In this document: positions 331 to 62,477 of the stretch, piece after piece | Layout: the number at the start of each line of letters is the position of its first letter | How positions within the stretch are numbered: position 1 is the first letter of the stretch | NCBI GenBank assembly: GCA_020080175.1 | Contig: JAGHQL010000099.1 | Coordinates: 3,937 to 67,936, forward strand | DNA: 64,000 bases | From: Glutinoglossum americanum | Lineage: Eukaryota > Ascomycota > Geoglossomycetes > Geoglossales > Geoglossaceae | Direction of reading: 5' to 3' | Notes under the pieces: generated by a model | The model's database searches: none | The model's input: the letters and a program-made list of their open reading frames with translations, nothing else | Told to the model about the DNA's origin: nothing | Position numbers and translations under genes: made by a program

Positions 331-3300
331 TGCAGCGGAGCACCCCCCCATAGATTTTCCAGGTCAGAAACGGCCACCTTGAAACCGGCAGCTTTGCCAA
401 GTAGCACCATTAGTACCCCATCAAAGCCCCTTTCCGCGGCTTCAACCAGCGCCACTTTGCCCGGTTCAACCTGTAAATCAAGTGGCGGTTCATTCTGCAG
501 TAGCACGTGCATCGCGGCCATGTGTTCAGACCTAGCTGTTATTTGTAGGACCTTAGTCGTTGTATGTAGAGAGAGCCCATACTCTAGCAAGAGTCGCACC
601 AACACCTCATCGTTGTTGAGCGCTGCTTCGATAAGCAGCTTTCCATATCTGCCGCCTATACACCCTTGTTTTGCCAAAAGCTTGACCACGTTTGTGTGGC
701 CGCCGCTCAATGCACTAAGCACAATAGATCGGTCTTTCCCGGACTCCCAACGGCAATAGTCACGGAGGTTGGAACCTCTCGGTAGTGACAAGAGAAGCTT
801 CAAGAGAGGCACGTGTCCTGTACGAACTGCCCAGCGGAAAAGCGAGGTATATGGTAAATGGTCTGACATGCTATTATCGCCCCAGATCCTGACGTCAAAC
901 GCCATTGGCTTTTCCATAGCCAGGTACTTGAACGTCTTCCACATGGTTGTGTTGTCTTCTGAAAAGTCCGATGCATGACCTATCCAGTTCTCAATAGCGT
1001 AACTCAGGAAGAGGTATTTTCCCTGCAGGCCCGGCGGCGGTGGCTTTTTCAGCCTAGCGAACTTTGCAAGGTCGAAAGTCGGCGACTGCTGCCCGATGTT
1101 TCCTACACGCACATATTGATAAAGCTTGAATATGCTGGACGTGATATAGCTGAGTCCTAGCAGAATTGTTGTGCCGTTCAGAATCGCAGCTGGACCAGGT
1201 ACGTCAATAGTTGATACATTATTGTTAAGTCTTGACGTGGTAAGCTGCGTTTCGAAGTCCGAAAATGACAGATACACAATGCATATCTCCCCGGCTTCAA
1301 CATTGGCTTGCGAGAGCTGAAAGTGAAATTCGGGGATTGAGCATTCAGCGGGCGGCTCAAGTAAAAACTGTTGAACCGTATGGTGGGCAAGCCGGACCGT
1401 TTTGTCGTCTTCGTCAAAGACCACAAGGCTTCTACAGGCTTGAATCAAGCGTGTAGCGTCCGGGATTTTCTCCGTGTTCCACCATCGGTCGCCTGGTCCG
1501 AATGCAACAGCCTCTCCTAGTTCCGTTATGAGCAGTGGACGTTTAGCGCAAACGACCCACTTGAAAATTCGCTGAGCTAGAACCATATTCGGTTGGCTTC
1601 CCCATATCTTCCGTAGCACTCTTGCATAGGTTTCGGCCATACCCTTTGGTAGGTTTCGAAGAGTTTCTCTGATACCGAAATCGGACACAGCATCACAAAG
1701 GTCGGCAAGCTGAAATTGAACCCACAGGAACCTACTGTTTTTAGTCCCCTGAGCAAGTTCAGTCATGGCAATGAACTGGCCACTTACATCCCACCTGCAC
1801 CACCTATAAGTGCAGACATAATATCTGACTTCAGGGAAGGATCTCGGATCGTCAAGGCTCCGGATCCGATATTCGACTCTACCGTCTCTTCAATGAAGGC
1901 AGTGATGTCGGGGGAGTTCTTGTCTGCCGAAACCAGGAGATGAGGAAATCCTCTCAGCGATGTCGAGATAAGAGTCTCTTCGCGGCTTGTTATGACGACT
2001 TTAACTGCTGTGTGATTAGATTGAGCCAGTTGACTGATCATCGATAGGATCGTGGTTTGCTCGTCCTTTTCGCATTCGTCGAGGCCATCAATGCAGATAT
2101 AGACTTTCGAGAAGTGCTTGACAACTGCATAAAGGATGCTAACTAGTTCGTCGTCTGCTGCAGTTCTCGTACCAAGTCGATAAAACCTGTCAATCTTCTG
2201 TTCTAGATCGTCAGGTATAATAATATTCTCCAATAGCTGTCTGATTATCGTGCCGAGGATGTTTTGCGTCTCAAGCGATTTTGGATCTGAGAAATCACAG
2301 TAATAGTAGTTTATTGTCGCCTCGTGACTAGTGATATCTCTGTCGATTATTTCTTGACTAGTGAAGCGCTGAACGGTGACGTCTTTCCCTGTGATGCTCA
2401 TAGACAACGTATCTATGAGACTCGACCTAGATCAAATTTAATTAATCGCTCCCAGAGAAGACAGGGTAATATACGTACGCTAGGACCGTCTTTCCCGAGC
2501 CCGCTAGGAGAGTTGTGACATAAGCCTCGCACCACACGATTGCTCAACAGGAGGAGCGTAGGGGCACCTACGTATCCCGTAGCACCAGAGACAAGCTGAG
2601 CGGTCTCCTGTCATCCACTTCTTGAATTCGTCGGTTTGTGTTAGCCAGGAGCCGGTCCCGGGGTGACGTCTTTTGCGCTCCTTTATATGCTTGTCGACAT
2701 ATCTAAGAGATGATAGCTGAGACAACAGCAGATCCCTCTTTGCGGCTACTAATACGTCAATAATACTACACTCGCTCCTAAGGTATTTGAAAGCGTACTC
2801 TTTCTCCGTCTCTCATTTTCTGCTCTGTCAGCTTGTACCAGTGCTCTTTCAGTTGAGGCTTCTATCAAGTTCGATATACCAGCTTCCTTCTCTACATTCT
2901 TTATGTGATTGCGAAATCTGTTCAAAGTCTCCTCAAACTCTCCATTGAAATCCTTCCATAACGATTTCAACGTGAAGTGCACTGCCAGGATGCTTAGCCA
3001 GTTCAAATTTCTGAGCAGAAAGGCAATACCTTACCAGTCGTCGATCTCTTCAGCTTCCGAAATATTGCCTTTGCATCCATACAGAAATATATGATGTCTA
3101 GGTACGCCACCGATATAGCTTGCAGCAGCCGCCCATGACTAGGAAAAAGAGAGTAGTAGACTTGGCACCTCGGAAGAACGTCCCCGATCCTTGTGAACAT
3201 GTCGATGAGCTTCTTGAAGTACTTTTCGAATGTTTTAGCAATCTAATATCGGGTATCAGCATACGGTCGCCAGAATAGCCGACGTGTGTGGGTAGACGGT

Positions 3301-3613
3301 GAAGATTAGACTCAACATGTAAAAGGACCCTAATACTACCCCACAAAGGAGCCATGGCGAGAGAATAGGTATTAGAATATACGTCGAGTGCTGAGCCATA
3401 CTGGTCTATCGCGGAGACGAAGGGCTCTAGCCTTTGAGAGATAGCTCGGGATATACTCTTCTCCTCATGGTCTTTCTGTGCTGCGCTGGCGCTGCAGAAG
3501 ATATTCTCTAGAGAGGCGGTTGCGAATGTCTTCTTTTCCTCTTCATTCAGGTCTTCCATGTAACGGTTACGCGCGAACTGCCATGGGTCTGCAGGAGCGG
3601 AATTACAGGCCAT
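1..3613 (-). CDS. NACHT-ankyrin STAND (NLR-like) receptor, partial at left edge
   Basis: Signal-sensing NTPase of the fungal NLR-like class, probably cytosolic. Seven exons join in frame: 3613-3317, 3242-3035, 2981-2799, 2748-2572, 2503-2479, 2426-1788 and 1731 to the edge, giving at least 1086 residues with no stop. Residues 1-290 form the helical N-terminal domain typical of these proteins. The Walker A loop GIPGSGKTVLA (about residue 290) is split by two introns, so one 25-base exon carries GSGKT. Walker B is VYICIDGLDE near residue 405, followed by the sensor-like VVITSREE. FLWVQFQL opens the post-NACHT helical region. Ankyrin repeats occupy the last 250 residues and continue off the window; the outermost are almost identical to each other (see findings). 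The start is the ATG at 3613. Very sure of the family; the ligand is unknown. Confidence 0.93.
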
Positions 3614-6600
3614 GTCTTAATAACAAACATCTCACAGGACTAGGATCCAGGGCAGGATCCCCAGTGAGGTGAATAAGAAATTGGTGAGAGTGTGAGCTTC
3701 TGTGACGCAGTGAGATCGATCAGTGAAGTTGAAGTGAAGCAGAGCCGAATAAGACTGGCGGCCTCCAGCCTTGGATCCATGCTCGACACACCAAAATTTA
3801 CCCCACAACCGGCAAAGCGTAGTACATGTACTCAGTCGCAAGGCTATTTCAAGCGAAACTTTGGTAGGTTCGCTTCGCAAGCGTATCAAGACTTCTCTTA
3901 ACCACATAATAACCCCCACCCTCGAAGACTATAGTAGAAAGAAGAACGATACCTTATTGGCTATATCAGAATAGAGTTATGAGTTGCGACTATTTAGAAT
4001 ACAGGAGGGGATTTGAATAAACCGAATGTTGACTGGCAGAATCGCCAGAAGGTCCATTACCACCCAATGTCGGCACTAATACCAACATCCCACACCTTCC
4101 TCTTCTTCTCTGACTCCCATCCCAAGGCAGGATAGATGGCGGAACAGGAATTGCTCATGTTCACCGAACAGCACTTAGCTGATTCTCCCAGGGTAGGTGG
4201 GTTGTGTTGGAAGAGGCGTTTTCTTGAGGCTCCGTTCGCATGGCATGTTTCGATTTTGCTTTCGCAGTATGGCCGTTGAAGAAACGATCTGCTCCGTTGA
4301 TATCGTCGGACACCTCACCATGATAGGGATCAGGATCCTCCCTCGAGTCCGTGTGGTATAGTTTGGTGTAATTTTGCTATGGTTTAAGTTGGTTCCGTCT
4401 CGCAGCGGCCTGAAGCGCTAGCTAGGCCATGGCCATATCGACACCTAGGCGAGCCTACCATCCTTTAACCGGTTGGTAGCTGAGGATTTCATGGGCGTCT
4501 TGGCTCTCGTGCTCGTCGTATGCGCCGACGCAAATCGCCGAATACACCGCGATAAAACGTATTGGCGAAATCTAGTACTTCTCGAGGTCCTCAGGCCGTA
4601 TATCATTCCGTATGTGTTTACCGAATACGGCTGGCAAGGGCGCTTGCCGCGACGATCCACTCTGGGAATTATTTCTTTCTGCGGATTTGAGAGGTAAAGT
4701 GGGATGAAGCGATGGTCGACTGTTGGAACCGGACCGCCGCAGTGGTGGGGTCCATTGTTTCCGCTGAATCTATCAAATGAAACATGGTTTTAGGTGGAGA
4801 CCCTGGATGTAAGAGAAAAGGCCAGCTCTTTGTTGGAGTCGAGTTGACATTATCCGGTATGGTGAAGTACCAGAAGTTGGCCGACGGGGGAACGCTGATA
4901 CGTCCATCGCGTCTTCCCCCTCGATGGGCCTAGGACCGTCGCAGTGACAAGAGTCATTGCCCCTCTGGGTTTCCCAACCTGATAACCCACAAGTTCCCCT
5001 CTCTCAGCCTTTCACCTTTCGGTCTTCTCCTCCCTCTCCACCTTCTCTAGTTGATCGGCCACGGCATCAAAGATTTCCCGGATGCCCTACCTGTACCAAT
5101 CGGCATCCTTCTGCATGTCGGTTTCTCCATGAAGTTCCGTCATGACGTAAGTAAAAAAGAGGCTCCCAGCCAGTTCGTTGGGTGGATACCCCCTGTGGCC
5201 TTCATGCTGTCGAGGACTTCGCCCAGTCTCGATACTAGGTAATCCGGCTGATATTCTGGCAACCCGGCCGTGCCGGAGATCTGCCCCGAAGTAGCCGCCC
5301 AAGGTGTAACTGGCGGCGGATGGGTGGCAGGCGACGTAACCACATCTCAACAAGATGAGCCGTTGCTCCCGCCATCGCCGTCTTCTTTCTTCTTTTGCTC
5401 CCTCACTTCTTCATCCCCCCTTGTTTCTTCTCCTCTGCTCCCTCGTACGTACAATCACCGAGCGTCAACTATGTCCCTCACTCCCACCCTTCCTGGGTTT
5501 TCTCTCCCCCATCCCCTCCTCGGTGAAATTTCCGCGCATGAAGCTATGCTATGGTTTTAGGTACCGGGAGGGAAGTGAAGCGGGGCATGTCTGCTCTAAG
5601 GTTCAAGGTCTTGAGAGATTTAAAGGGGCCGGCCCCTAGATGTTAGTCTGTCTTGGTTGGATGACAGAGGTCACTTTCCCGGAGAGGCGGATCATCTAGT
5701 TCCTGTATTTGACGAGGAAATGCTAGGAATTGAGCTCTCCCTGGCCAACTGGTTTAGTCTAGCTCCCGTATGAAGACTATGCCCCCGCTAAGCGGAAATT
5801 GCATATTGGGTAACCCTGAGGATTGAAGGCTTACTCTTTCATGCACCCTCCTCCCTCGAAGATCTCTGCGTCCCCTCGTCCGTACCCCCAAGCACGTAAC
5901 CGACGCTGCCTATAACATGTGGCGTATCTCAATGGAACCAAATGGGCTACCATTCAGAGCCGCAAGCCGCAGCCCAATATTTCCCCTCCCTCCTCAACTC
6001 CCTACGGAGGGGTTTGTTGCCTTCTGTTTCCCTGATATGCAAGGCCCACGGGCGATGGAGGGATACTGTCAAGACGCCTAGGCCATAGCAGACGAAGCCC
6101 CACCAGTGGCTCCGTCTTAGGCCCTAGCTTCGGCACGGGCAACTTGCCCTCTTCTGGGCCTGGCGCTAACAGAATAGGTACCCCAAGAACTTGTGCCCTT
6201 ACTTCCCACTTAACTCCCTGAGGAACACATCACGGCCTAAGTATCCTCGAGGCTTCCCCGCACGTAAACAATTCACGCAATATTCAATTGCGCCCGTGAA
6301 TCGGGTGGAGGTCCTATACCGAGCGGAAGACACGAGATTAGATAGGTATCCCAATACAAAATATTTGAAACCCTATACAAATCACCAAGCAAGAGGGGGA
6401 GCAAAAGAAAAAGGTCTTACATCTCACCCGCCCCAGGGGGTGATCCTCTAGTCGCGGAGGGTCGCTGCGCATGAAGCCCACCACGGCCATGTTCGTGGTC
6501 AGGAGACGCCCAGAGCACCTAAGGTGTGCCCAGAGTGTCGGCACAATCCCACACGCTCCCTAACCCGTTCTCTTCCAAACACCATAACATTAGCACATGT

Positions 6601-28982: not shown

Positions 28983-31900
28983 ATGCGTACCCACGCGCTG
29001 TTCGCGCTTTTAGTGTCGTTTGTTCCTTCTGCAATTGCTGTTTTTGCCGACGATGCGTACCACACGGACTATCACCACCCACTAGTAGGCATACCACAGG
29101 AGCACAACACGTTCTTCCACCGTCCACAAGCTTCTTCAAGGGCCTCCCTACTGTATACCCTATCTGAGAAGCTCATACTGGGAGCCATCAATCCAAAGGA
29201 TGGTGCTGTGGTGTGGCGGCAATTTCTAAACCCTTCCTCGAACTTGACCTCTTCGACCGAAGGTTTCCTCCGTGCAGGAGAAAATGAAAATACCGTGATC
29301 AGTGCGGTGGGCTCGCAGATAAGCGCGTGGGATGCGCTGGACGGGAGATTGGCGTGGAGAAATGAGTTCGCCGATGGCGTAGCAAAGGACTTGGAAGTTA
29401 TTGAGTTTGAAGACGGGAAAGCCAAGAAGAGTGGGAAGGATGCTGTTGTGCTGTTTGAGGGAGATCATGCAGTAGTGAGGCGGATTTCTGGGGAAACGGG
29501 TGATGTTCTGTGGGAACACAGAGATGGAAGGTACACTTGAGCCAAAACTAGAAGCACGGCATGGTTGTAACTAACAGACGCGCTTAGTGGCGGTATTCCG
29601 CATCAATTATCAACATCCAACTCCAATATCTACCTTGTATCTCTAAGCTCCGCAGGTCGGGCGGGCCTAAAGATCAAAGTTACGTCTCTTGACCCCGTGT
29701 CGGGTCGCGAACGCAATCATTATGCCCTCAGTTCAGAAGCTGATGTGTCGACTCCTCAATCGATACTGTTTGTTGGAGCAAACTCCGCATCACCCATCAT
29801 TGCGTGGTCAGACAAGGCTTCAAAGGTTTTGAAGGTCAATGTCATTGGGTCGAAGCACATCAGTTCCATAGACATTCCAAACGAAAACGGCGAAGACATC
29901 AAGAAGATAAGAGTCCACGCGCCTCACATAACGCGGTCTTTGCCGCATTTTCTGGTACATTATCAATCTGAGACTAGAAACTGGGCAGAGGTCTACCACA
30001 TCAATCTCTCAACTTCGACGGTGTCAAAGGCATATAGTCTTCCGAAGCTCGCGGGACCGGGGGCATTCTCGACCAGCACGCAAGATGCTAACGTATTCTT
30101 CACACGCAACACAGAAAATGAATTGCTTCTTCTCTCCTCTACCTCTCACGGCGTCCTCGCCCGATGGGAGACAGCCTCCGCTGCAGCTCCCCAGGACGGG
30201 GTTGCAGAGAAGGAGCACCCGCTACATGGGGTTTCTGAAGTCATTTCTCGACCAGACTCTAGCTACGCCGTCAGATCGGCTTTGGTCAGCTCCGCCGGTG
30301 ACTGGAATCTTGTGCGTAATGGGAAGGCCGTTTGGAAGCGCACTGAAGCACTAGCTGGTGCTGTCGCTGCCGAGTGGGCCGAGCTCCCCGAACTTAAGGA
30401 CTTAGCTCGAGAGCTCGAAGTGGAGGTTCATGAAAACATCCTTGCGGCTTACATCCATAGGGTCAAGCGACACGTGAGGGATTTGCAACATTTCCCAAAA
30501 TGGATCGAGTATTTGCCAACAAGGATACTGGGAGCTCTCAGTGGAGACGAAAAGATAGCAGAATCTGCCAAAGGATTTAACCGTGATAGCTTTGGCTTCC
30601 GGAAGCTTGTTATTGTTGCCACTGAGACTGGCCGACTCTATGCGCTCTCAGTCGCTGACCAAGGCCAAGTGATATGGAACATAAAGGCTGCCGATCTTAA
30701 GGACGGGGAGCGGTGGGATGTAACGGGTATGTATGCTGACAATGCTGAGGGCTTGATGATTGTGCAGATTGGTTCAGGAGAGAATATTGTTGTGGAAACT
30801 ACAACCGGTAGGGTCGTGTCTGCATCCCTAGAAGGGTCAGACACTGGCAGGAAATGGTTCACTGGCGCCAATGAAGGCGACCCGGTACTACTCTCAAGCG
30901 GCTTGGTCCCCAGAAAAAACATCACTGTGATCGCTAGAGGCCCAAACGGGGAAGTCCGAGGGAAACGCTACGCAGGAGATGGGTTTGCTACAACCGCATG
31001 GGAATTCGCCCCGAGTGCCGGCGAGCGTATCGCGGAATTGACGGTCCGGCCGTTCCATGACCCAGTTGCCTCCATCGGGCGAGTCCTTGGCGACCGCTCT
31101 GTCATGTACAAATACCTCAACCCGAACCTCCTCCTCATAACCACCGTCTCCGACGCCAAATACTCGGCTACATTGACTCTTCTCGACTCCGTATCCGGCA
31201 ACATCCTCTACACCACCACCCACCATGGCGTCGACACCACCCGCCCAATCGTCTCCGCCCTAAGCGAAAACTGGTTCATCTACTCCTTCTGGGGCGACGT
31301 CGTCCCCTCCAGCGACAGATCTTCACCCCCTGCCCAGTCCTCAAAAGGCTACCGCCTCGTAACAACCACCCTCTACGAATCCCCCCTCCCTAACGACCGT
31401 GGCCCCCTCGGCCCCTCTAAAAACTTCTCCAGCACCTCCCCCCCTTCAACCCCACCATTCATAAAATCCCAAGCCTATCTCATTCCCTCTGCTCTTAGCG
31501 CCCTCGCCATCACCTCTACCCGCCAAGGGATAACCTCCCGCCAAATCATCGCTTTCCTAGCAGACACCCACGCTATAATCGCCATACCAAAACTTCTTCT
31601 CAACCCCAGCCGGCCCATCGACAGGGACCCTACTCCCGCCGAGGCAGAGGAAGGTTTATCGCGATACCAACCCCTCCTGGAATTCGACCCGAAATGGATT
31701 ATCTCGCATAAGCGCGACGTCATAGGCGCTCAGAAAATCATTACATCCCCCGCACTCCTCGAGAGCACAAGTCTAGTATTCGCGTACGGGATAGATATAT
31801 TTGGCACGAGAGTCGCGCCGAGCATGGCGTTTGATATCCTGGGTAAAGGCTTCAATCGGATGCAGTTGATTGGGACCGTAGTCGCGTTGGGGGCTGGAGT

Positions 31901-32074
31901 AGCATTCCTAGCGCCCATGGTGAGCCTCCTTTTCTATTTTTACCCGAGTCAAGACCAAAACCCCCAAGATCTCCGAGATCTTCTTAATTGTTGTTTTGTC
32001 TTGTTACTGACCCCAGACTTTATGCGTCGCAGGCAAGTCGGAAGACTATCAACTTGAGATGGCAGACTTCGTGA
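28983..32074 (+). CDS. EMC1: ER membrane protein complex subunit 1 (EMC1)
   Basis: Largest subunit of the ER membrane protein complex, which inserts tail-anchored and multipass proteins. Three exons close exactly: 28983-29530, 29588-31919 and 32033-32074, giving 973 residues. The signal peptide MRTHALFALLVSFVPSAIA leads into the lumenal beta-propeller, with blade motifs such as INPKDGAVVWRQFL and ISGETGDVLWEHRDG. The C-terminal DUF1620-type domain contains FGTRVAPSMAFDILGKGFNR. One membrane helix follows (LIGTVVALGAGVAFLAPM), and a short cytosolic tail ASRKTINLRWQTS is encoded by a 42-base last exon. That last exon uses the second of two candidate acceptors, chosen because it restores the usual RK-x-x-x-x-RW ending. 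An in-frame CTG/TTG start further upstream is not used. Confidence 0.96.
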
Positions 32075-48647: not shown

Positions 48648-50188
48648 TCAAAACCCTTGCTCTCCGCCACAAATTTCATACCCAAAATTGCGAAGCTCCA
48701 TTGCAGATACGCCCCAACACTGATTGGAATTTATTTTCTTGAATCGAAACAACCCAACAACCTTTCCGTCAGAGTCAAGAAAAGGCGACCCGCAGCTTCC
48801 ATCAATCGGCTCACTCCCATTCTCGAAGACAAACCACTGATGGTGGATATAATCCCTATCCCCTTCCTCTCGGAGCATTGCCCCTATCCCAAGCACAAGC
48901 CCTTCACAAAAGCCTGAAAATGGGTTGTCCATAGTAATCGGATCATATACCCGAAGGTTTGGGGGGTAACCTGGCGATATACCGCTCATCTGAATACCAC
49001 CCAGGCCGTCTTTTGAACTAAAGGTCTCGTTCACATACCTAAGCCCTGAGTTGAGCTTCACAATCGAAATATCGGTCTCAGGCAGCCGGTCCACAACCTT
49101 GCCAATTACTGAGCCTTTAATAGGGTCTGGATGATAGACCAAGCCATCATCCTCAAAGCCATGCGACGCCACAGTGATAAATGGTTGGCCATGGTGATTG
49201 ACAACAAGCATTCCAGAGGTTGTGGTCTTGAATGTCTCCTCAGTTTTTCCGTCTCTTGTAATTTGGCGGATTGATGAGCTGACCATAATGCCAGGGCGGA
49301 GGAGCGCATCTGGGGTAGTTGTGTAGAGGGTATCATCGTATTTGACGCCTTGTGGGATTTTCGATCCAAGGACTGATGGATCTGGATCTAGGCCTTCCGA
49401 CTGGGACTTGTAAAAGCAGACCTGATGGGCAATCCACGACGGCAGGACTTTCCAATCGGTACCATCAGGTACCGTAATCCTCCAGAATCCCGGAGACCAC
49501 ATGATGTCTCGAATTTTGATCTGTAAAGCTTGAAATATTACAATAGCTTCCTTCAGGATGCTCTCCGAAAATTCTTCTTTGCGCTGTAGGTCAACATGTT
49601 CAAGCATTTTTTTGCCTTTCCCAACTTTTCCTGGGTCAAAGCAGTGCTCCAGTTCGTCCGTTGTCAGCCACAAGAGAAGCCCGCCCACTGTGAAGGGCCA
49701 GGGCTTAGGTGGCAGTGTTCGGACTCGGATTATCACGTAAGGTGGGGCGACTTCGGCAGCAAATGCTGTTGGGAAAAGCCTCAGCAGCTCCGAAAAATCC
49801 CCATAGGGCGGCGTCGTGGGCTTCCCGTTTTCGACAAGGGAATAGCTGAGCTCAACCCGTTTAGATACGGTCAGAGATTCCATAAGGCCTTGATTAGGCT
49901 GCCCTAGCTGAATCTCAAACTGCGCATCTATTTGCCCATAGTTAGTATAATCCGAAAACTATCCGATGGAATGTTCTCACCTAAAACTGAATTGTCTTTC
50001 CCTGGCTTCTTTTTCACCGGTGAACTAGCCTCAGCGGCAGCACCCGCCCACTCTCGCGGTACGATCACAGTCGTACACGGTAAACATCGCTTCTCCGGCG
50101 AGGGTTGTATCTTTCGCTGCGGTGGCGTAGTTGCTAATCTGAGGATAGACTTGGACGGAGAGAATTGTAACACTGTATGAGTTGACAT
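48648..50188 (-). CDS. Chymotrypsin-fold protease with a cysteine-type nucleophile motif
   Basis: Two exons close exactly, 50188-49981 and 49927-48648, giving 495 residues. There is no signal peptide, so it is probably intracellular. Residues 1-210 show no family I know. The protease-like half has the expected order of a PA-clan site: His325 in TVASHG, Asp355 in ETDISIVKL, and the nucleophile loop DGSCGSPFLDSDG around residue 448. In PA-clan enzymes the nucleophile is third in G-x-S/C-G; here that residue is Cys, not Ser. Related fungal proteins usually have Ser at this position, as I recall them. Such domains are also found as effector parts of fungal NLR proteins. Substrate unknown. Confidence 0.75.
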
Positions 50189-51919: not shown

Positions 51920-52569
51920 CTAGCCCTCAAGTTCAGCGTAGAATCTATGACCGTCTTCATTAGGGTCTAATCGAGAGTGTTGGTGCGATTCATCGTCGCC
52001 GTCGCTGTCGTTGATATTGCCGTTATTCCCGCGTATGGGCACCAGCTCAGTGCTCGGATCGGCTACTGTGATAATACGCCAACGTAAGCCATTGTCGCCT
52101 ATTCCATACACACATCAAATACCAGTTGAAAAGAAAAGGATTCAATTAGAATCTCAAACTCACATTCCACGATCCCCCTGCTCCACCGCCTTCGTCCCTG
52201 TAACCAAGTCGCGAACCCAAGCACTATAGTCAATGCGCCGATTATGATGCCGAAGATGCTGAAGATCATAGAATTATGTGGCGGGTCGGAACGAGGAGGA
52301 AGAGGTGGTGGTACGCGGGCTAGAGTATATTTTTTTTTATTAGCTCGGCAATTACTTCTAAAGGATTCTTATTATTGCAAGTGTGGAGGGGAGGGGAGAA
52401 TATTTTGCTCTGGTGGTGTAAACATTGTTGGTTGATAAATAATTATTTTCCGACCGATCGGAGGCCTAAAAAGTCTATTTGGAATAACGTCTTGAATTCT
52501 CCGGAAGCATAAACGAAAGCGAGACTCGGCAGCGAAAGTTGCAAACTTACCCATGTGGTTCGTAAACAT
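51920..52569 (-). CDS. Small single-pass membrane protein, family member 1
   Basis: Three exons close exactly, 52569-52551, 52319-52164 and 52065-51920, giving 106 residues. Exon 1 encodes MFTNHM. Exon 2 has a Pro-rich lead (PPPLPPRSDPP), one membrane helix MIFSIFGIIIGALTIVLGFA and the basic stretch QGRRRWSRG. Exon 3 begins ADPSTEL and ends RFYAELEG. With no signal peptide and basic residues after the helix, the N-terminus should face out and the tail in. A TATA-like gtatata lies at 52641-52647 (minus strand), 72 bases upstream. Function unknown. Confidence 0.7.
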
Positions 52570-52721
52570 CGCTAATCGTGTCTAGGTAGATAGATAAGTA
52601 ATGTTAAATAGTGTTGCTTTGGCTGCGTGTGCAAGTGGTTGTATATACTTGAGTAGGCGAGGGAACACGCGGGTGGCGGTTGGCGAAAGTGTGTGATGAT
52701 TCCTGGAGCGGCAACTACTAG

Positions 52722-53254
52722 TTGCCTGAATTGATTGGGGTCGAAGCCTCAAGCTTGTTCGACGACACTAAACAAAATAATTTGATCGGAATGATTCCCG
52801 ACCTAATAATCTCTGCGCCTAGTGATTCACGTTGTAGCCCTAGGATCTGCGTTGTAGCCCTAGGATCTGCGTTCAGTTCTGTGTGGAATGGGAGAGGAGT
52901 TTAAGTACTTGATTCCCAGCATGAGGAGTCTATATTGCATGTTCGGGCACATAGCCGCTTTGGTAATGAGATTAACTGATTGTCGTAGATCCGCTATCCG
53001 AAGTTTCGGGGGCAATTCGGCCGTGCGTACTATGTGGTCTAAGGCAAGGCACCCGCTTTAACACCTCATTTGTGCAGGGATATATCGCCGCTTTCAGAAC
53101 TTTAGGCGAAGCGGTTCCTCGTCCTCCATGCTTCATGGTAAAGGAGGAAGCCACACTACATGCCACCCACATTGCCTCTGACGATCCACATTGCATCCCT
53201 CTTGAGAAGGCTCTGCTAATGCCACGTGATACAGAAACCGTGGAGTCTCCGTGA
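52722..53254 (+). pseudogene. Two-exon gene fragment, unknown family
   Basis: A plus-strand frame begins after an acceptor-like actactag: LPELIGVEASSLFDDTKQ to PDLIISAPSD (52722-52831). A second open stretch, from about 52988 to the stop at 53252-53254, contains SGAIRPCVLCGLRQGTRF and PLEKALLMPRDTETVESP. The composition is gene-like, but no start exon is seen upstream and a 20-base tandem duplication interrupts the first part. Likely a truncated host gene; family not recognised. Confidence 0.35.
52831..52870. repeat. 20-bp perfect tandem duplication
   Basis: Two exact copies of gttgtagccctaggatctgc lie head to tail inside the gene fragment at 52722-53254. Confidence 0.95.
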
Positions 53255-53567
53255 TATGTAGTTCCGACTAGGGACCGCACCCATCCGAACTGCGCTTCTA
53301 GAAAGACGAGCCGGTAGCTAAACTTCTAGACAATATGCAGAAACATACCAAGGGCGGTAATAGCCCAAAGGAAAAGAAGCGGTAACACTGTTCTCGGGAG
53401 AATACAGACGGATATGTATCGGGAGCCATCTCCAGAAATCGCCCTGATTTAGGATATCCATTTTGCCACCTTCACACCGTCAACACGATCAAGCGCGAAA
53501 GGGGTGGGAAAAAAGGTAAAAAATAAACCCCAAACCCCAAGGGGAAAAAAAGAAATTTACACAGCCT

Positions 53568-54018
53568 TCACGCTTCCAGCTCGGCGACATAAAGCCCCTC
53601 GTCTAAGTGGTGTCGATGGTCGCCGTCAATACCCCGCATCCTCACAAGCGCCATTAAATCCACTACTCGCCCAAAAAAAAAAAAGCTCCCAAATCAGTCA
53701 TCTCTACACGGCACACACGAAAAGGTAGTAATTCCAAGAGCTAGATAACTCACCGTGCTCCCTCCCTATTATCCTCAACCCCCTCGGGTGACGGCGACGG
53801 CCCTGTATCAGCATCCCAACGGCCAAAACAATAGACAGGGCGCCAACGATGAGGCTGAGGACGCCGAAGACGATCGTAGTAGTAGTGCTTGTATCCGCAA
53901 GTGAACGTGTTTGCAACGATAACCCTACGCGAGAGGATTTATTAGTTTTCAGATATACATGGTTTCTTTCTGGACCAAGGGATTTTTTTTTACCTCTGCG
54001 AGCTGGCGGGACGAACAT
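53568..54018 (-). CDS. Small single-pass membrane protein, family member 2
   Basis: Three exons close exactly, 54018-53994, 53924-53754 and 53662-53568, giving 96 residues. Exon 1 encodes MFVPPARR. Exon 2 contains LSLQTRSLADTSTTT, the helix IVFGVLSLIVGALSIVLAVG and a basic run QGRRRHPRG. Exon 3 begins VDLMALVRM, is His/Asp-rich and ends YVAELEA. All splice junctions are phase 1, as in the other members. A TATA-like element (ttataaaa on the minus strand) lies at 54127-54134, about 110 bases upstream. Function unknown. Confidence 0.72.
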
Positions 54019-54899
54019 GATAACTGCGAATGAAGGCGAACGGGTAAGGTAATTGGTGTTTTCTTTGCGTTGCGGGTTTCGCGGTGATGTCTCGATGGCC
54101 ACCTCCCACTGCGGGCGCATCGTACATTTTATAAGGATGAGAAAGCGAGGGACCAGAGCCCGGTCTCCAGCTTTGCCGACGGGCGTAGTTTCTTCCCTCC
54201 ATACGATGGCCGAAATTGTCCTAAAGAGGTAATCGTCCCACACAGAACAGTTGCAGGGATCAAGCCGATTTTACGAGTAAAACAACTCTTCAGCTTACAA
54301 GCCAAGATACGTTGGTGGCAAAGCGCAGCGTGTGGCTGGACAAGTCATCCCCCAGAACTACGGCGAAAAGTTGTCTTAAAAGGTATTGATTGATTGGGTC
54401 GGCTAGTAAGGGTGGTGCGGAGGGCAAAGGATTGAAATTTGTTTTTTTTTACTATGCAGGGGCGCGTGGCATAGTAGCGTACGTACATAGCTCTACACCG
54501 AGCGGGTGGTAAAGTGGGACGTTAAGAGATTGCTGAGGATACGGTCATCAAGTAGTTCGCGATCAACATTAACCGGTGCTGCGAAACCCTCCTGGCTACA
54601 TCATCCCCTCTATCGATTCGTCATGCCGCTGCAGATGCACGCACACCTCTACCGACCTGCAGAAAGTACAGCAATGGGAAAGAACATGATAGGAGAATCG
54701 GCGGCGATGGCAAGCGGGAGACGGACGTAAGGTTAACTAGCGTATGGGAGGTTGAGTTGTAGCAGCGAATGTTGAAGCGAAAAGACAGTTGGATCGCTAG
54801 CCCGTCCACTGCTGGAGAAGAAGTACGGTACCAGAAATTTTGTTTTGCAACGCTCAAGCCTCCGCTCGAACAGTGCCTATAAAATCCTTAGACTCGTAG
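54019..54899. other. Spacer between small gene 2 and the zinc-finger gene
   Basis: Contains the promoter of small gene 2 at its left and the 3' end of the zinc-finger gene at its right. No other gene supported. Confidence 0.5.
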
Positions 54900-56250
54900 T
54901 CAACTCACCCGACACCTAGCCCGCTCAGGCCTCGGCTCATTTGGGTGCTGTTTCTTCCAATGTGGTTTTATGTTAGAAAACCTAGTAAACGACCGAGGGC
55001 AGTAGGGACAAAGGAATAGATTCTTTTCGCCGTGCCGTTCCTGACGGTGTCTGTTTAGGTTCATTTCCACCCATTTCGGCTTGTCTGCTTTGCCAGAGAT
55101 TATCTTTCCGCAGATGTCGCAGCCCACCTCTATGACCGACTGTAGCGGTGGAGTCTGACTTGGGCTGTGGTTCATAAGTGGCTCGGGAGGTGAGATGCTT
55201 TGTTGGTTTACGGGAAGCGGTTCTATTCGTTCGCCGATGTTATAAAATAGACTAGATATCGGTTTGTCAGAACATTGTGCATGCGGCACTCAAGATACCG
55301 GTAAGTAAAACTTACCCCTTCTCAGGCGGGTCACTGCCGTAGCCGCGAAGAGACAGGCGTGGTGAGTTAGAGTAGTAACCAGGGTCAGGAGACTCGGAGG
55401 TGTTCCCGCTACTACTGTAGCTGACAATTGGCGAATATACGACAATGTCGTAGTCGGCTTTCCAAGGCCAGCCTGCCGGATTGGCGTTCTCCATGCTGGC
55501 GGTTTCGCGGGGTGTGGGTGAAGAGGGGAACTGGCACCAATGAATGACGGCCTGACCCAAGAAGTTTCCTCCGTAACCGCCACCTGCGACAGGCTGCTGG
55601 TTGGCCATAAGCATGGGATAGCAGGACGCCATAGAGCCTTGGGCGGTGGGGTTGTCGGAGTATGAGCCCATGTGATAGACTTCCAGCATATCTTGGTAGT
55701 CTATTCCAAGAGCGTTTTGGCCTACGATAGCCTGAGCGAGATTAGCCTGAGCACCACCGAAGCCTAGATCACAAACTAGGCTTAGTGATCCACAGCCACA
55801 ATAGCCCAATGTCCAACTAATGTCGTTCGTGGCGGAGATATTAGAGGTGGGGTTGATACTGTCTACAAGACAGGTGACGTTGGGTTGCCAATACTCGGCT
55901 TCGTCGGAATTCACGGCAGCCTTTAGGGGCAGGCCGTGTGATGGGCAAACAAAGCAGTCCTATAGCTCAGTCAGCGAGGTGCCTCCGAGCTCGAAAAGGT
56001 AACTAGCATCTTGTTTCTGCCAGGTAGGGCGACCATCCAGCAGCTGAGCGGATCGGGGCTCACTCCCAAGCGACGCGGAGTTATTTTCCATCGGATAGTT
56101 ATTGACCGAGGTCATATCGTAATTAGTTGATGCCGTCAGTTCGTCGAGCGATGTCGCTTCGTTACTGAAAGGGCTGTCACAAGAGACAGATCTAGACTTG
56201 TGAAAGGTCTTGAACAGCCGGCGAAGCCCCTTTCCTCTCTCGCGAATTCC
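54900..56250 (-). CDS. C2H2 zinc-finger protein, possibly decaying
   Basis: Probable nuclear DNA-binding protein. The last exon, 55251-54900, joins in phase to the exon ending at 55316. It carries two zinc fingers: CDICGKIISGKADKPKW with H-x4-H spacing, and LCPYCPRSFTRFSNIKPHWK followed by QH. The upstream exon is open from about 55957 to 55316 (for example WQPNVTCLVDSINPTSNIS). The same frame continues further upstream to 56240 (NYDMTSVNNYPMENNS), but a TAG at 55960-55962 interrupts it. That TAG is either inside an intron I could not fix or a real disabling stop. The start codon is not identified, so the right boundary is approximate. Confidence 0.6.
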
Positions 56251-58676
56251 CTTTTGCGAGGTCTCTCAAATCGAAGACGCGGGATTGCCTAGTGTTATCT
56301 CGCTTTGCGAAGTAACAGAGGACGTGGCAGGTAGATCGCCCACCTCTTTTTCAAGGCTAGGTGAAGAGAGTGGTCAACCTCTATTCTGGGACGGTAGCAG
56401 GTACGGTATAATCCTGGGTCCCGATTCCGCTGAAAGCTCAAAAGCGCCTTGGCCACGGCACTCGATACAGATGGAAGTAGGTCCGCCCGCGAGGGTATCA
56501 CCGCCAGCCTTCGAAGCCGTCTTCTTCCAGAACCTAGTGCACAGCATAAAATGCGCGAGGGGGGAACGGATTAAGCACCAATCTTGAAGGTGCAGACAAG
56601 AATGCCAGGGGCGTATCACAAATGTCGGTATAGCAGGAGGGGGACAGTGTTCGTAATGGAAAGAAAGCGCCGCGGTGACCAGCGGATTTAAAAGTCAGAG
56701 TAGGTAGACCAACACCCCAGTGTAGACCCGAAGGGCAAGAAGGGGCAGATGACCTCTCAGGTAGCTATCCCGTAGATGTGCCCGCAGTCGGAGTCTAGAT
56801 GCGAACAAGGCCATTCGATAGCATTGTTACATGCAATAAGGCAGTCATGTCGTAGCAGAAGCGGTGACGCTGACCCAACCCCCAATTGGGTTGGAAGGAC
56901 TAGAGGCCGATGGGAAAATTATCCACACGCCACACCACGATAAAAGTGTGATCAACCAACTAATCAGCCAGCGAACCAACCGGCAGACCGAGATAAAGGG
57001 TTGGGTTCAGGGAAGTGGAGGAAATGAATGTCAAGCCCGTGCCCTCTCACACATGCCCTATAACTCCCACGCCATAGATGTGTCCCGTTACACGATACGG
57101 CTCATGAGCAACTGGTCCGCGGGATAGGGAGAGCCTAGAAGAATATCGGTTTGTGATCCTGAGTTGTCAAAGCGAGAAGCAGGGGAGAGGGCAATAACAG
57201 CTCGTAGTCCTTCCAGAGATCGATGTCAGCGATCGATGTCAGACTAACAAATAAAGCAGGTTCGTGCGTTGGGCGGTGGCCACACGGGAACTCGGCCGAG
57301 ATTCCTCCTAAACCCAAAGGACGATTTGTTAACAAAGCAAAGCGGATAATTCTTTTGCGATACATGCTACTCACATGTTGCTCCGGTCCCTTGCAAACCG
57401 AGTAGGTCCAGTATTTGTTGTGGTATGGGGCTGCCACAGGTTGACTAAGTCTAACTTGTTAAAATTCCAGGTCAGAGCAGACACCGGATGTGGTGCGAAT
57501 TACCACATCCTAGATAGCGCTGAAAAAGCTCCAGTTTCCGGCCAGAGTCCGAGGAAAGCGTCGACGTGGGCGAAAGGATGAAAAGAATGAGGGGATCTAA
57601 CTCCTTAATTATATTCTTCCTATTCTAACTTCACGATATCGGCCGAAGGACATCGCCCAGCCCTTAGTACAATATCCCTTACTCACGTTGATTGAAGGCG
57701 CACCCCAAGGTTGAATTCTATGATTTAAGCAATCAGTATAGGTAGCCTAGCTCCCGGCGCCCTTTTTTTGATACTCCAAAGGACTCGCATAAATGAACCA
57801 GTAGGGTGTCTCTAAAGAGCATCAGCCTCGTTTCTCGAGGCGGTGTGCGGAGTCCTGTAGAGTCTACACCGACCTCGGTACAGAAGATGCAGCCTATGCT
57901 TCCACGTAATGCCTTCTAGAGTAAATTCGCTGAAGATCTCCCGAGGCAAAGAAAAGAAAAGAGGCAAACAACACGGGGTTCATCGGTGGTGTTCGCAACG
58001 AGTCGTTGCACTTGTACATAGGGTGTAGAGGAGACTCTCTACACACCGGTGTTCCCACGCGGGTCCGCACGGACGCTACAGGGGTATTTTGTATGGAAGA
58101 AAAAGTCTCTGCTCCCTATCCTCCAAGTACGTAGGGAAAGAACGATCTAGAGGGGCAGATAATGGGAAATGCCAACAATAATAGGGCAAGAAAGTAAATA
58201 GTGATGTAGGTATAGCCCAAAAAGCTTTAGGAAAGTAGAAATAAAATAATTGTTCGTTGAAGCATAACATCCCTACCGACAAGGAATAATCCTTGCCGCA
58301 AAAGACCACCCCTATCAGCTTGATAGGAGAAGCGGTAGACAAATGCTAAAATATGTTAATTCTCATACTAGCAGCCAAAAAGAAAGGGGGTGTCCCCTTT
58401 ATGGAGATCCAGCCCTGATAATCATCGAGTCTTATCTGCGGGGTGATATATTCGTAGCCGGTTGGCCAGGAGGCCTATTGAGCGAAGGATAAAGCCGAAG
58501 TTATCCACCGGCTGTTTGGCTCAGGATTGCAACCTTAGCTTTTATGGAGAAGTAGCTCCGTCGTTGAAAAAGAGTGGGAAGATAATTTTTCGGGAGTTGC
58601 AAGAATTCTAAAATGATTTTTTATACGCTTGTATACGCATTTCTGAGTACTGGGCAAAGAGTATTCTGCGCTAAGC
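56251..58676. other. 2.4-kb spacer before the duplicated gene array
   Basis: Open frames of up to 125 codons show no domain. A self-complementary pair, gtgtagag and ctctacac, lies at 58023-58045. The left end may hold the first exon of the zinc-finger gene. No gene is supported. Confidence 0.5.
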
Positions 58677-59000
58677 CTAATACTGGAGTTGAACCGTTCG
58701 AATCACGTGATTACGCGATGGACAATGATATAACCTTGCTAGAGAGCGACTTCAGGTCACAGAGGCACTGGCTTAGAAGGCATATGTAACTAACTAACAG
58801 CAACAAAGGGTGGGCTAGGATGCCCAAATCTCAACTCAGGAGGCACGAACAGAGCTCGTTTTACCTTGAAGAACGTCCTTTTTACACCATGTATACTCGT
58901 ACAACGCCATCCAACGACTCCTGAGAAGGGATAGACACGAACCAACCCAATAAAATAAAACTAAAAAATCCATATCCCTATATCCTATCCCCCACTCCCT

Positions 59001-59451
59001 TCACGCCTCTAGCTCGAACCTCCCTGCAGAATACCGACCACCAATTCCACTCAACCCCATAAACGTCCAAGGGTCCACTACCGAAAAAAGAACCAAAAAA
59101 CAATCAGCCTTCTGATCCCGGGTTACACAAATAAAACAAAATGGAAAAAATAAGAAATAAAAAATCCAGAGCATCTACTCCGTATATTACTCACCAATCC
59201 TCCTCATCCACATCCCAATTACCATCAAGACGGTAGTTAGTATACCAATAACGACGCCGGAAACGCCAAAGATGATGGAGATGTTGTTGTCATTCGGTGA
59301 TCCTCCTACATAAAAAAAAAGGGAGTTGAGAAAAACGGTTAGTATTATTAATTACTTTATTACTTCGGGATGGACGGAGGACTAGGGTTTGTCAGATAGG
59401 CCGGTGTTAGGGGGACGAACCCGTGTTAGGCAGTGGCGATGAGATAAGCAT
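59001..59451 (-). CDS. Small single-pass membrane protein, family member 3
   Basis: Three exons close exactly, 59451-59421, 59305-59195 and 59077-59001, giving 72 residues, the shortest of the family. Exon 1 encodes MLISSPLPNT. Exon 2 is SPNDNNISIIFGVSGVVIG and then ILTTVLMVIGMWMRRI. Exon 3 is VDPWTFMGLSGIGGRYSAGR and FELEA. The extracellular part is nearly absent compared with members 4 and 5. The exon 1 donor is gttcgt, a weak match to gtaagt but shared by members 3-5. Function unknown. Confidence 0.75.
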
Positions 59452-60248
59452 AGCGATGTCGCTCTCTCCGTTTTTATTTTTATTTTTACTTAAATTTTTT
59501 ATTTTATTCCTGCTGAATAAGAAGCGGGGGAGAGTATAAGAGTAAAAGAGTAAGGTTAACTGAATTGTTCGACTTTATATCATTGTTTCAGTGTTTAGCC
59601 GTCGGGCCAGGTCCTTACATTCTCTCACCAGCCGTGGGTTTTTAAGCCGTTAGTCGGCGCTGCGGAGACAACAGGTTAGCGAAGTAGTGGGTGACAAGGG
59701 TGCCGAGCTTAGAGCGAAGCTATTATGCGGATATCATTCTAGCTTCGCCTTAACTCTGCCGCAATGTGACACCCACGCTCTCACTTGTCGGTGTGAGTTA
59801 TCCTAGCTGTTGCTGCGGCGGGGGGGGGGTCAGGAATGAAGGAGGATGGGAGGGGTTACGAAAGGAGTTGGGAGGGGTTAGGAAAAACGGTGACGAAAGA
59901 GGTGGAAGGGGTTGGGAGGGGTGGGAGGGGTAAACAAGGTGGGCGGAGTAGCGGTTTGTAGGGGATGACGGTGGTACGAACTTTGTGCGGAGATCACTCT
60001 AGCCTTGTTCTAATTCTATAGTACGCAATGAAACTGCCTTGTTGGTTGGGTTGGTCATTGAAGAAAAACGAACCTTAGCTGGTGTGGCGGCCTCCAGAGG
60101 ATCTAACCACCTCGGCACTTTTGGCAGGGATTGGGGATCCGGGCTACCCTAACCCTGTAGATAGAACCAAAAGAAAATTTTAAAAATTTCAATAGGTGCC
60201 TTAGGTTACATGCCCCTAAACATGCTCGGTAAGCCGATACAAAATAAC
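59452..60248. promoter_or_regulatory. Promoter region of small gene 3, with G-rich minisatellite
   Basis: A block with ttgttcgactttatatc (near 59563) also occurs upstream of gene 4. A purine-rich minisatellite lies further out (59820-59945), built on gggaggggt; it could form G-quadruplexes on this strand. Confidence 0.5.
59820..59945. repeat. G-rich minisatellite
   Basis: Repeated gggaggggtt and ggaagggg motifs after a run of ten or more G. Present only in unit A. Confidence 0.75.
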
Positions 60249-60513
60249 CTAATACTACGGTTGAATCGTAGGATCGCGTGATTATACACTGTAGAGATAT
60301 TCCAAGTAATGTTTTCTAGAGAGTGATTTCAAGCCACAGCGGCCCTAGCCTAAAAGATACGTGTAACAAACAGCAGAGGGTAGGCTAGGGTACTCAAGCC
60401 CCAACTTAGACGGCGCAAATAGAACCTGTTTCACCTCGAAAACCTCCTTTTTAACACCGTGTATACGTGAACCAACCCAATAAAATAAAACCAAAAACGC
60501 ATATCCCTACCCT

Positions 60514-60971
60514 TCACGCTTCTAATTCAAACCTCCCCGCAGAATACCGACCGTCGCTACCGCTCAACCCCATGAACGCCCAAGGATCCACTACCGAAAA
60601 AAAATAATCAGCCCTGTGTTCCCGGGCTACACATAATAGAATAGAAAATCCAGAGCATCTGCTCTTTATTTTACTCACCAATCCTCCTCCCCCACATCCC
60701 GATTGCCATCAAGACGATAGTTATTATACCAATAACGACGCCGAAAACGCCAAAGATGATCGAGATGTTGTTGCCCGCGCCGTTGTTGTTGTTGTTGTCG
60801 TCGCCCGGAGAACGCGTGTGGACAGCGTATAGGGATAAGGATAATTTTCCTAGGTGGAAAGAAGTGAAGAAAAAAAAAGTTAGCGTCATTATTATTTTAT
60901 TATTATTTTTTGGGATGGAGGATTGGGGTTTGTGGAGACGAACCCGTGTGGGGCAGCGCTGAGATAAGCAT
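60514..60971 (-). CDS. Small single-pass membrane protein, family member 4
   Basis: Three exons close exactly, 60971-60944, 60849-60679 and 60590-60514, giving 91 residues. Exon 1 encodes MLISALPHT. Exon 2 has LSLSLYAVHTRSPGDDNNNN, the helix ISIIFGVFGVVIGIITIVLM and the basic MWGRRI. Exon 3 is VDPWAFMGLSGSDGRYSAGR and FELEA. A run of gttgtt codons makes the Asn tract. A TATA-like element (gtataaaaag on the minus strand) lies at 61181-61190, about 215 bases upstream. Function unknown. Confidence 0.76.
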
Positions 60972-61034
60972 AGCGAAGCACGGTGCGTAGATTGGTTTTT
61001 GACCTTTTTCCGCCAAACGAGTGGGGGGAATGGA

Positions 61035-61106
61035 ACAGAAGAGCGAAAGAGCGAAAGAGCAGAAGAGCAGAAGAGCAGAAGAGCGAAAGAGTAAAAGAGC
61101 AAAAGC
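61035..61106. repeat. agaagagc/gaaagagc minisatellite in the promoter of small gene 4
   Basis: Eight or nine copies of an 8-base purine unit lie between the TATA-like element and the ATG, so they probably fall in the 5' leader. Unit A has only a short remnant near 59533. Confidence 0.85.
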
Positions 61107-61206
61107 TAACTAAATTGTTCGACTTTAGATCGTTGTTCGCTGCGCTGTTTCGATGTTTTGACATTTGGTCTTCGAGCGCGCTTTTTATACATTCTGGCCG
61201 GACATG

Positions 61207-61272
61207 TTGGAAATCCCTATCCTGGCTGGCTGGACAGTGTTGGAGATCCCTATCCTGGCTGGCTGGACAGTG
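61207..61272. repeat. 33-bp tandem duplication upstream of small gene 4
   Basis: Two copies differing at one base, each ending ctggctggctggacagtg. They lie just beyond the TATA-like element. Not seen in units A or C. Confidence 0.92.
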
Positions 61273-61990
61273 TGACAGGGTATTGTGACCATCCTTGTCC
61301 GTTTGTACAACGACTACGTAGGCTCACACCAAACGTATTCGGACTCTCGCTCAGGCACTTACCCCACTAAACTCTAGTTGAAACTCTAGTGAAGCAGCCT
61401 TTTGCTCTCTGCTGCTGTCGCTGCGCATGGAGGGTTATTGGGGCAGCGCGACCCGGCCATTTTTTGGTGTAGAAAGTTGATGGGGTGCCAGGGCTCGCTT
61501 AACTAAATTCTAGTTGAGAGTCCGAATGCTTTTGGTGTGAGCCTCCGTAAACCACCTACAGATAAAAATAACGAAAAAAAGCTGAGGGAAAAAAAAGAAA
61601 GAGGCATGACTTTTCATACAAAAACCAAAGACGGCGACCACCGGAAACATGTGAGGTATATAAAATGATCTAACGCTGTAGTCGAATCGCACAAATCACG
61701 TGACTATACACTTTGCGTTGTAGAGATATTCCGAATATTTTCCGATGGATATAAGGTTTGCGAGAGAGCGATTTCGAGCCACAGAGGCCCCTGGCTTAGA
61801 AGGCCGCATATAACTAATAGCAACATAGGGCGGTCCAGGATACCTAGATCTCGACTTAAAAGGCATGAATAGAGCCTTGAAGAACCTCTTTTTATACCGC
61901 GTGTATACCCGCACAACGCCATCCCAAGACCCCCGAGGACGAACCAACCCAACAAACCGAAAAAAAAAAAAAAAAGAGCCCATACACCCT

Positions 61991-62477
61991 TCACGCTTCC
62001 AGTTCAAACCTCTTCTCAGAATACCAACCTCCACCAAACCCCATAAACGCCCAAGGATCCACTAAATACCGCCCCAAAAAAAAAAAAATCAGTCTTCTTT
62101 CCACATCCCCCAAAAACTAAAATTAAAATAAAATAATGATAAAAATTCCAGAGCAACTCACCGCCGCCGCTCCTCCGCCTCCACATCCCCACCGCCATCA
62201 GCACGACGGACAGCACGCCGACGACGACGCCGAATACCCCGAAGATGACCGAGATGTCGTTGCTGCTGCTGCTGCTGCTGCTGCACGTGCTGCTGTTGCT
62301 GTCGTCGTCGTCGCCCAGCGAGCGCGCGCGGATGTCGTAGAGGGACAGGGCTAGTCTTCCTGCTTTTTTTAAAAAAGAAAAGAAGTCAGTATTATTTACC
62401 ATTATCACCATCGATATTATTATTATCATTATCTTTTTCTTTTTTTGTGATTGGACGGGACACGAACCCACGTGCAT
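61991..62477 (-). CDS. Small single-pass membrane protein, family member 5
   Basis: Three exons close exactly, 62477-62468, 62359-62162 and 62061-61991, giving 92 residues. Exon 1 encodes only MHV; this start is the nearest ATG in phase and aligns with the splice site of members 3 and 4. Exon 2 has LALSLYDIRARSLGDDDDSN, a Ser-rich run, the helix ISVIFGVFGVVVGVLSVVLM and the basic MWRRRSGG. Exon 3 is VDPWAFMGFGGGWYSEKRFE and LEA. A TATA box (gtatataagg on the minus strand) lies at 62631-62640, about 155 bases upstream. Function unknown. Confidence 0.74.

Follow-up and report, generated by a model that had tools for sequence, protein, structure and literature searches.

A family of small predicted single-pass membrane proteins sharing an E-L-E-A/G ending in the ascomycete Glutinoglossum americanum

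Introduction

In its passages on the fungal transporter UapA, PMC6597760 reports that ubiquitination and endocytosis require an E-X-E motif; it also counts D/E-X-D/E and aromatic motifs among the Sec24 signals. According to the section of PMC3778014 devoted to orphan genes in Pyronema confluens, their products are short peptides, and more than 20% of these genes are upregulated in sexual development. Here we describe a family of small predicted membrane proteins in Glutinoglossum americanum. Five of its genes, m1-m5, lie on the minus strand of a stretch of 64,000 nucleotides, bases 3937-67936 of contig C317 in an assembly of 25,765,983 bases and 317 contigs; this whole stretch is referred to as the window, and positions without a contig prefix are positions within it. 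Six intact predicted genes and one decayed copy make up the family found in the assembly; the genome searches scored the best candidates only, and the member counts are therefore lower bounds. The gene models, their kinship, the purifying codon pattern, the single hydrophobic segment, the stripe of small residues and the conserved ending are read from the sequence, and together the family looks real and selected.

Results

Gene models in the window

All exon/intron structures given here are predicted models built from the nucleotide sequence alone. The initial annotation proposed five minus-strand genes of three exons each, and three-exon models could be built for all five at the positions it proposed (its members 1 and 2 correspond to m5 and m4, and its members 3-5 to m3, m2 and m1). 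Gene m1 (61991..62477; exons 62477-62468, 62359-62162 and 62061-61991) encodes 92 residues ending in RFELEA; the same ending closes the 91 residues of m2 (60514..60971; exons 60971-60944, 60849-60679 and 60590-60514) and the 72 residues of m3 (59001..59451; exons 59451-59421, 59305-59195 and 59077-59001). The product of m4 (53568..54018; exons 54018-53994, 53924-53754 and 53662-53568) has 96 residues and ends in YVAELEA, and that of m5 (51920..52569; exons 52569-52551, 52319-52164 and 52098-51920) has 117 residues and ends in FYAELEG. All ten introns start with GT, end with AG and are in phase 1, and the stop codon stands directly after ELEA in four genes and after ELEG in one, as had been annotated. 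The lengths span 72-117 residues rather than the 72-106 first claimed, the gene at 52569-51920 giving 117, and the proposed VDPW start of the tail was found in three of the five proteins, the other two having VDLM and, deeper in the exon, ADPS.

Exon 1 is the least secure part of the models. In m1 it is only 10 nucleotides (nt) long, intron 1 leaves the reading frame open in m1 and m4, and the intron 1 donor is an unusual GTTCGT in the close copies m1-m3, with GTAAAA and GTAAGT in the other two genes. A branch-site-like pentamer is present within the last 60 bases of all ten introns, which is weak support because, by our own estimate, chance alone would supply such a pentamer to roughly half of all introns. 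Unspliced long frames were considered and rejected, intron 1 carrying stops in m2, m3 and m5 and m6 having a stop at the acceptor (by eye). Another start within intron 1 of m2, which would give a signal-peptide-like N-terminus, was likewise set aside, the same ATG being absent from m3.

Upstream of the starts, TATAWAW boxes were found 162 nt before the ATG of m1 (TATATAAG, 62639-62632), 218 nt before that of m2 (TATAAAAA, 61189-61182) and 115 nt before that of m4 (TATAAAAT); no TATAWAW occurs within 300 nt of the start of m3 or m5. With the sixth gene described below included, four of the six genes have the box within 300 nt of the start, the window average being 0.105 per 300 nt.

A sixth gene and a decayed copy elsewhere in the genome

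When exon 2 of m2 was searched against the whole assembly, only m1, m2 and m3 were matched at E values up to 1. Exon 2 of m4 retrieved itself, m5 (E 3.2e-4) and a place on contig C285 (E 0.0023), and that of m5 retrieved itself, m4 (E 1.4e-4), the C285 place (E 0.027) and a place with an internal stop on contig C44 (E 0.52). On C285 lies a sixth intact gene, m6 (C285:75097-75694; exons 75097-75130, 75196-75348 and 75576-75694), whose own exon 2 found itself, m4 (E 0.003) and m5 (E 0.08). Its predicted product has 101 residues, includes an LLQGR flank and ends in ERFYAELEA, and both of its introns are in phase 1. These features, occurring in a dispersed gene, strengthen the claim of a family, and the shared splice phases annotated for five genes extend to all 12 introns of the six models.

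The C44 copy is decayed: helix remnants occur in two frames with stops, and the ending DHHRFYAGLEA in a third. Its helix is weak evidence when taken alone (E 0.52 with m5 exon 2; profile E values of 0.045 and 0.13), and the exact match of its ending is the stronger sign of kinship. A consensus helix query returned the six intact genes and nothing further; being composed from those same six genes, it shows that there are no more members at that depth, not that the six are kin. Its single shuffled control gave no match, and such emptiness shows little. A tail consensus query recovered m5 alone, so that the tails by themselves fail to find members. Weak profile matches were also seen on L027 (tail, E 0.07 and 0.34) and L005 (helix, E 0.76). 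The neighbours of m6 and of the C44 copy look housekeeping-like (identities by eye), and the family is therefore not tied to one cluster.

Since exon 2 of m2 reached only m1-m3, the link between m1-m3 and m4-m6 was tested separately. In all nine cross-group pairs the BLASTP score (18.9-31.2 bits) was above those of all 40 shuffles made for that pair, with helix and flanks shuffled apart; the narrowest margins, of 1.2 bits, were for m3-m6 (18.9 versus 17.7), m2-m6 (23.1 versus 21.9) and m3-m4 (23.5 versus 22.3). Profile-profile alignment of m1-m3 with m4-m6 gave a probability of 95.9 and an E value of 6.4e-9 over the helix and the upstream flank. The initial view of a single family, with three close genes and two diverged ones, is upheld by these comparisons, and the common intron phases and endings add to the case.

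Protein anatomy and predicted topology

Each of the six proteins has one hydrophobic segment of 19 residues, with a mean hydropathy of 2.17-2.89 and the next best segment at no more than 1.04. It is preceded by 20-38 residues, the N-termini being short and polar and, as judged by eye, probably free of a cleaved signal peptide, and followed by 33-75. In five of the six proteins, lysine plus arginine residues (K+R) flanking the helix come to 2-5 on the C side, against 0-1 on the N side. The annotated succession of a helix and then basic residues holds for all six as regards the helix and clearly for five as regards the flank. According to the positive-inside rule a basic flank stays cytosolic; because K+R are richer on the C side in five of the six, the rule suggests an Nout-Cin orientation, with the N-terminus outside and the tail in the cytosol. 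One segment and a basic C-side flank is the layout expected of small bitopic Nout-Cin proteins, the K+R excess being present in five proteins and the two sides equal in m6. In tail-anchored proteins the helix lies within about 30 residues of the C-terminus. That class was rejected, as the 33-75 residues after the helix exceed this limit, the value of 33 being near it.

By eye, all 24 residues at helix positions 5, 8, 12 and 15 are G, S or T, and every one of the six proteins has F at position 4. A 3-4-3 stripe of small residues of this kind is a common packing surface.

The E-L-E-A/G ending

E-L-E is present in the tail of all six proteins and has the form of the di-acidic D/E-X-D/E motif; an aromatic residue stands one to three positions ahead of E-L-E-A/G. 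At the DNA level, the pattern R/S-F-Y-A-x-L-E-A/G-stop, with at most one mismatch, was found at three places in the assembly (the C44 copy, C285 and m5), and its reversed control had no match in the assembly. The pattern R/S-F-E-L-E-A/G-stop, with no mismatch, was found at four places (m1, m2, m3 and one on contig C12), its reversed control at one. The C12 match, an S-F-E-L-E-A ending, was counted as chance, no family helix being present in the frames read, and the YVAELEA ending of m4 was missed by both patterns. The endings are nearly family-specific within the genome. Constraint on the C-terminal tetrapeptide, which had been proposed at the outset, is borne out by the Leu codon of ELE, which from m1 to m6 is CTG, TTA, CTA, CTG, CTT and CTC, that is, five different codons over six genes. 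The tetrapeptide may fairly be read as a docking or sorting signal.

Codon-level evidence for selection

As judged by codon pattern, the close trio m1-m3 shows purifying selection. The comparison of synonymous and non-synonymous change in this trio had been set beforehand as a check, and the family passed it: in all three pairs the proportion of synonymous differences (pS, 0.31-0.51) exceeded that of non-synonymous differences (pN, 0.09-0.19): pS was 0.44 and pN 0.18 for m1-m2 (83 codons), 0.51 and 0.19 for m1-m3 (63 codons), and 0.31 and 0.09 for m2-m3 (71 codons). Bootstrap intervals exclude pS = pN for each of these pairs. In a core of 41 codons without the low-complexity stretch, pS/pN was 0.49/0.12 for m1-m2, 0.61/0.15 for m1-m3 and 0.30/0.05 for m2-m3, and the m1-m2 differences at codon positions 1, 2 and 3 were 10, 2 and 14. 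Over the 18 codons of the helix, second-position differences number 0-4 in all 15 pairs of genes, and first- and third-position differences 6-13 in 14 of them; the remaining pair, m2-m3, has 1, 2 and 1.

Tandem array and surroundings

Genes m1, m2 and m3 form a tandem array on the minus strand (58677..62477), about 1.5 kb apart, with corresponding repeats spaced by 1442-1577 bases. Their second introns and 3' flanks align above the shuffled level; at or near that level are intron 1 of m1-m3 (0.55 versus 0.52) and the 5' flanks of m1-m2 (0.52 versus 0.54). Octamer repeats lie upstream of m2 (61025-61113), a 33-base tandem duplication was seen at 61205-61270, and a 37-base element with a CACGTGA core is shared, at 76% identity, by the 3' flank of m3 (58677-58713) and that of m1 (61670-61706). 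The minus strand of the m3-m4 spacer (54900-57900) has a 215-residue open frame at 55312-55959 and, by eye, a C2H2-finger-like stretch with stops around it, which may be a worn gene.

Farther away, a fragment of an NPHP3_N/NACHT-type NTPase (1784-2431, minus; NPHP3_N E 1.4e-20) looks like part of an NLR-type gene, and upstream of it is an open frame without a Pfam match (3098-3616, minus). A 436-residue open frame at 48648-49958 (minus) has a Trypsin_2 match under the cut-off; a genome search with PF13365 gave five Trypsin_2 places, this one and four others that score above the cut-off. The plus strand at 29571-32057 encodes the C-terminal domain of EMC1, subunit 1 of the endoplasmic reticulum (ER) membrane protein complex (E 8.3e-73). 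About 5 kb past the end of the window, an open frame (L005:5123-6061) matches IF5A-like Pfam families; we take it to be probably HEX1, the Woronin-body protein, which fits a filamentous member of the Pezizomycotina.

Discussion

With somewhat less than even confidence, we favour the reading of these proteins as small bitopic Nout-Cin membrane adaptors or regulatory subunits, which would pack by the helix stripe, with the ELE tail as their signal for sorting or docking. From the features described above we infer expression, topology, oligomerisation, tail recognition and the adaptor role as follows. On insertion, the short polar N-terminus would come to lie outside, and the basic flank and the tail in the cytosol. 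The helices would pack on one another, or on a larger membrane partner, through the small-residue stripe. A coat or adaptor protein would recognise the E-L-E-A/G ending as an acidic signal for ER exit or sorting; alternatively, the ending would be the place where a dedicated partner docks. The protein would then be delivered to a particular membrane and act there as a small adaptor or regulatory subunit. That the family is an undescribed one of self-associating adaptors, and that its aromatic residue and E-L-E-A/G C-terminus form a new docking or sorting signal for a dedicated partner, is put forward more tentatively and seems on the unlikely side.

Several observations weigh against the adaptor reading. 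The E-X-E motif is short and common, and YxxL occurs in m5 and m6 only, which leaves E-X-E as the only known signal to cover the family. In m6 there are three K+R on each side of the helix. Over their whole length m1 and m2 differ at 26 first, 11 second and 24 third codon positions, the high first-position count, level with the third, being probably due to the low-complexity N-terminus. Between m2 and m3, identity is 0.86 in intron 2 and 0.82 in the 3' flank, against 0.88 in exon 2 and 0.82 in exon 3, and between m1 and m3 intron 2 (0.79) is more alike than exon 2 (0.72). Because intron 2 and the 3' flanks are about as similar as the exons, it is the codon pattern alone that singles out the latter. 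Two of the six genes have no TATAWAW box. Finally, a match to a receptor helix in the PDB is nominally significant (E 3e-4) and was dismissed as composition by judgement only.

Alternatively, the genes might be lineage-specific orphans that serve in sexual development or under stress, their products acting at membranes with no dedicated partner. The short products of the Pyronema confluens orphans and the upregulation of more than 20% of them in sexual development, as given in the relevant section of PMC3778014, are in line with this, as is the presence of TATAWAW within 300 nt of four of the six starts where 0.105 would be expected per 300 nt. The invariance of ELE and the stripe along the helix, however, hint at specific contacts, and we regard this explanation as rather improbable.

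A further possibility, to which we assign a low probability, is that the proteins are remnants of larger surface proteins, all that is left of an ancestral single-pass sensor being its membrane anchor and its tail in the cytosol. The C44 copy is plainly decayed, and some fungal single-pass surface proteins have tails that end in short acidic motifs. Remnants would be hard to reconcile with the retention of the start, both splice phases and the tail in six genes, or with the purifying selection in the close trio, and the R-F-Y-A-E-L-E-A type of ending is found in no other gene of the assembly at up to one mismatch.

It is doubtful that we are dealing with membrane-acting effectors of cell death or non-self recognition, that is, with glycine-rich helices triggered by an NLR-type receptor and spread by tandem duplication. 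Fungal NLRs are described as activating membrane-targeting death proteins in the part of PMC7885112 that treats them, and the locus offers a tandem duplication, one decayed copy and, in the same window, the NPHP3_N/NACHT-type fragment at 1784-2431. This fragment, however, is some 50 kb away, m6 and the C44 copy lie among genes that look housekeeping-like by eye, no Pfam domain was found in the six proteins, and the codon pattern of the close copies is purifying rather than diversifying. That these are not genes at all, and that chance open frames ride on a tandem repeat, is very improbable: the close copies are indeed about as similar in intron 2 and the 3' flanks as in the exons, but pS clearly exceeds pN in each of the three close pairs, the dispersed m6 has the same structure and the ending is nearly specific to the family.

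Under the favoured adaptor reading, a tail that acts as a docking signal would imply that filamentous fungi have a partner not yet recognised, and the three tandem copies and three diverged genes are natural variants with which the tail could be tested. Gene predictors easily overlook membrane proteins that are very small and have tiny first exons; the dispersed member, the decayed copy and the clear codon signal provide a firm entry point.

Comparison with known families

None of the six proteins reached a Pfam-A cut-off: the best match for m1-m5 had an E value of 0.0019 and 18.3 bits against a cut-off of 30, and m6 gave nothing at E 0.1. No family of matching layout was found in the literature among the matches listed. 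Judged against Pfam and the literature, not against fungal protein databases, novelty of the family is likely, albeit unproved; it is a solid and possibly unnamed family of an ordinary kind.

The best PDB matches were to the prostaglandin F2-alpha receptor (8iuk, 8iq4 and 8xjk; E 3e-4 to 7.9e-4 over 45 profile positions) and concern its N-terminal part with the first helix. The receptor has seven helices whereas m1-m6 have one each, and assignment to the seven-helix receptors was rejected on the single hydrophobic segment per protein. The next match, to a hypothetical membrane protein chain (7qhm_J), had an E value of 0.066. The transmembrane helix of ErbB2, a bitopic protein of the small-xxx-small type, likewise has a small-residue stripe, the profile match (E 0.45-0.62) being at chance level; unlike ErbB2, m1-m6 have no receptor domains, and their stripe is a 3-4-3 one over four positions.

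The orphans of Pyronema confluens are also short, also without known homologues and also from a filamentous ascomycete; in the section of PMC3778014 that deals with them, however, they are treated as a class and no family with the layout of m1-m6 is described. The likeness to UapA and other NATs, as these are presented in the relevant passages of PMC6597760, is a short acidic E-X-E in the C-terminal tail, and no homology is claimed. In UapA the motif lies beside the 14th and last membrane segment, whereas in m1-m6 there is one helix and E-L-E stands at the extreme C-terminus.

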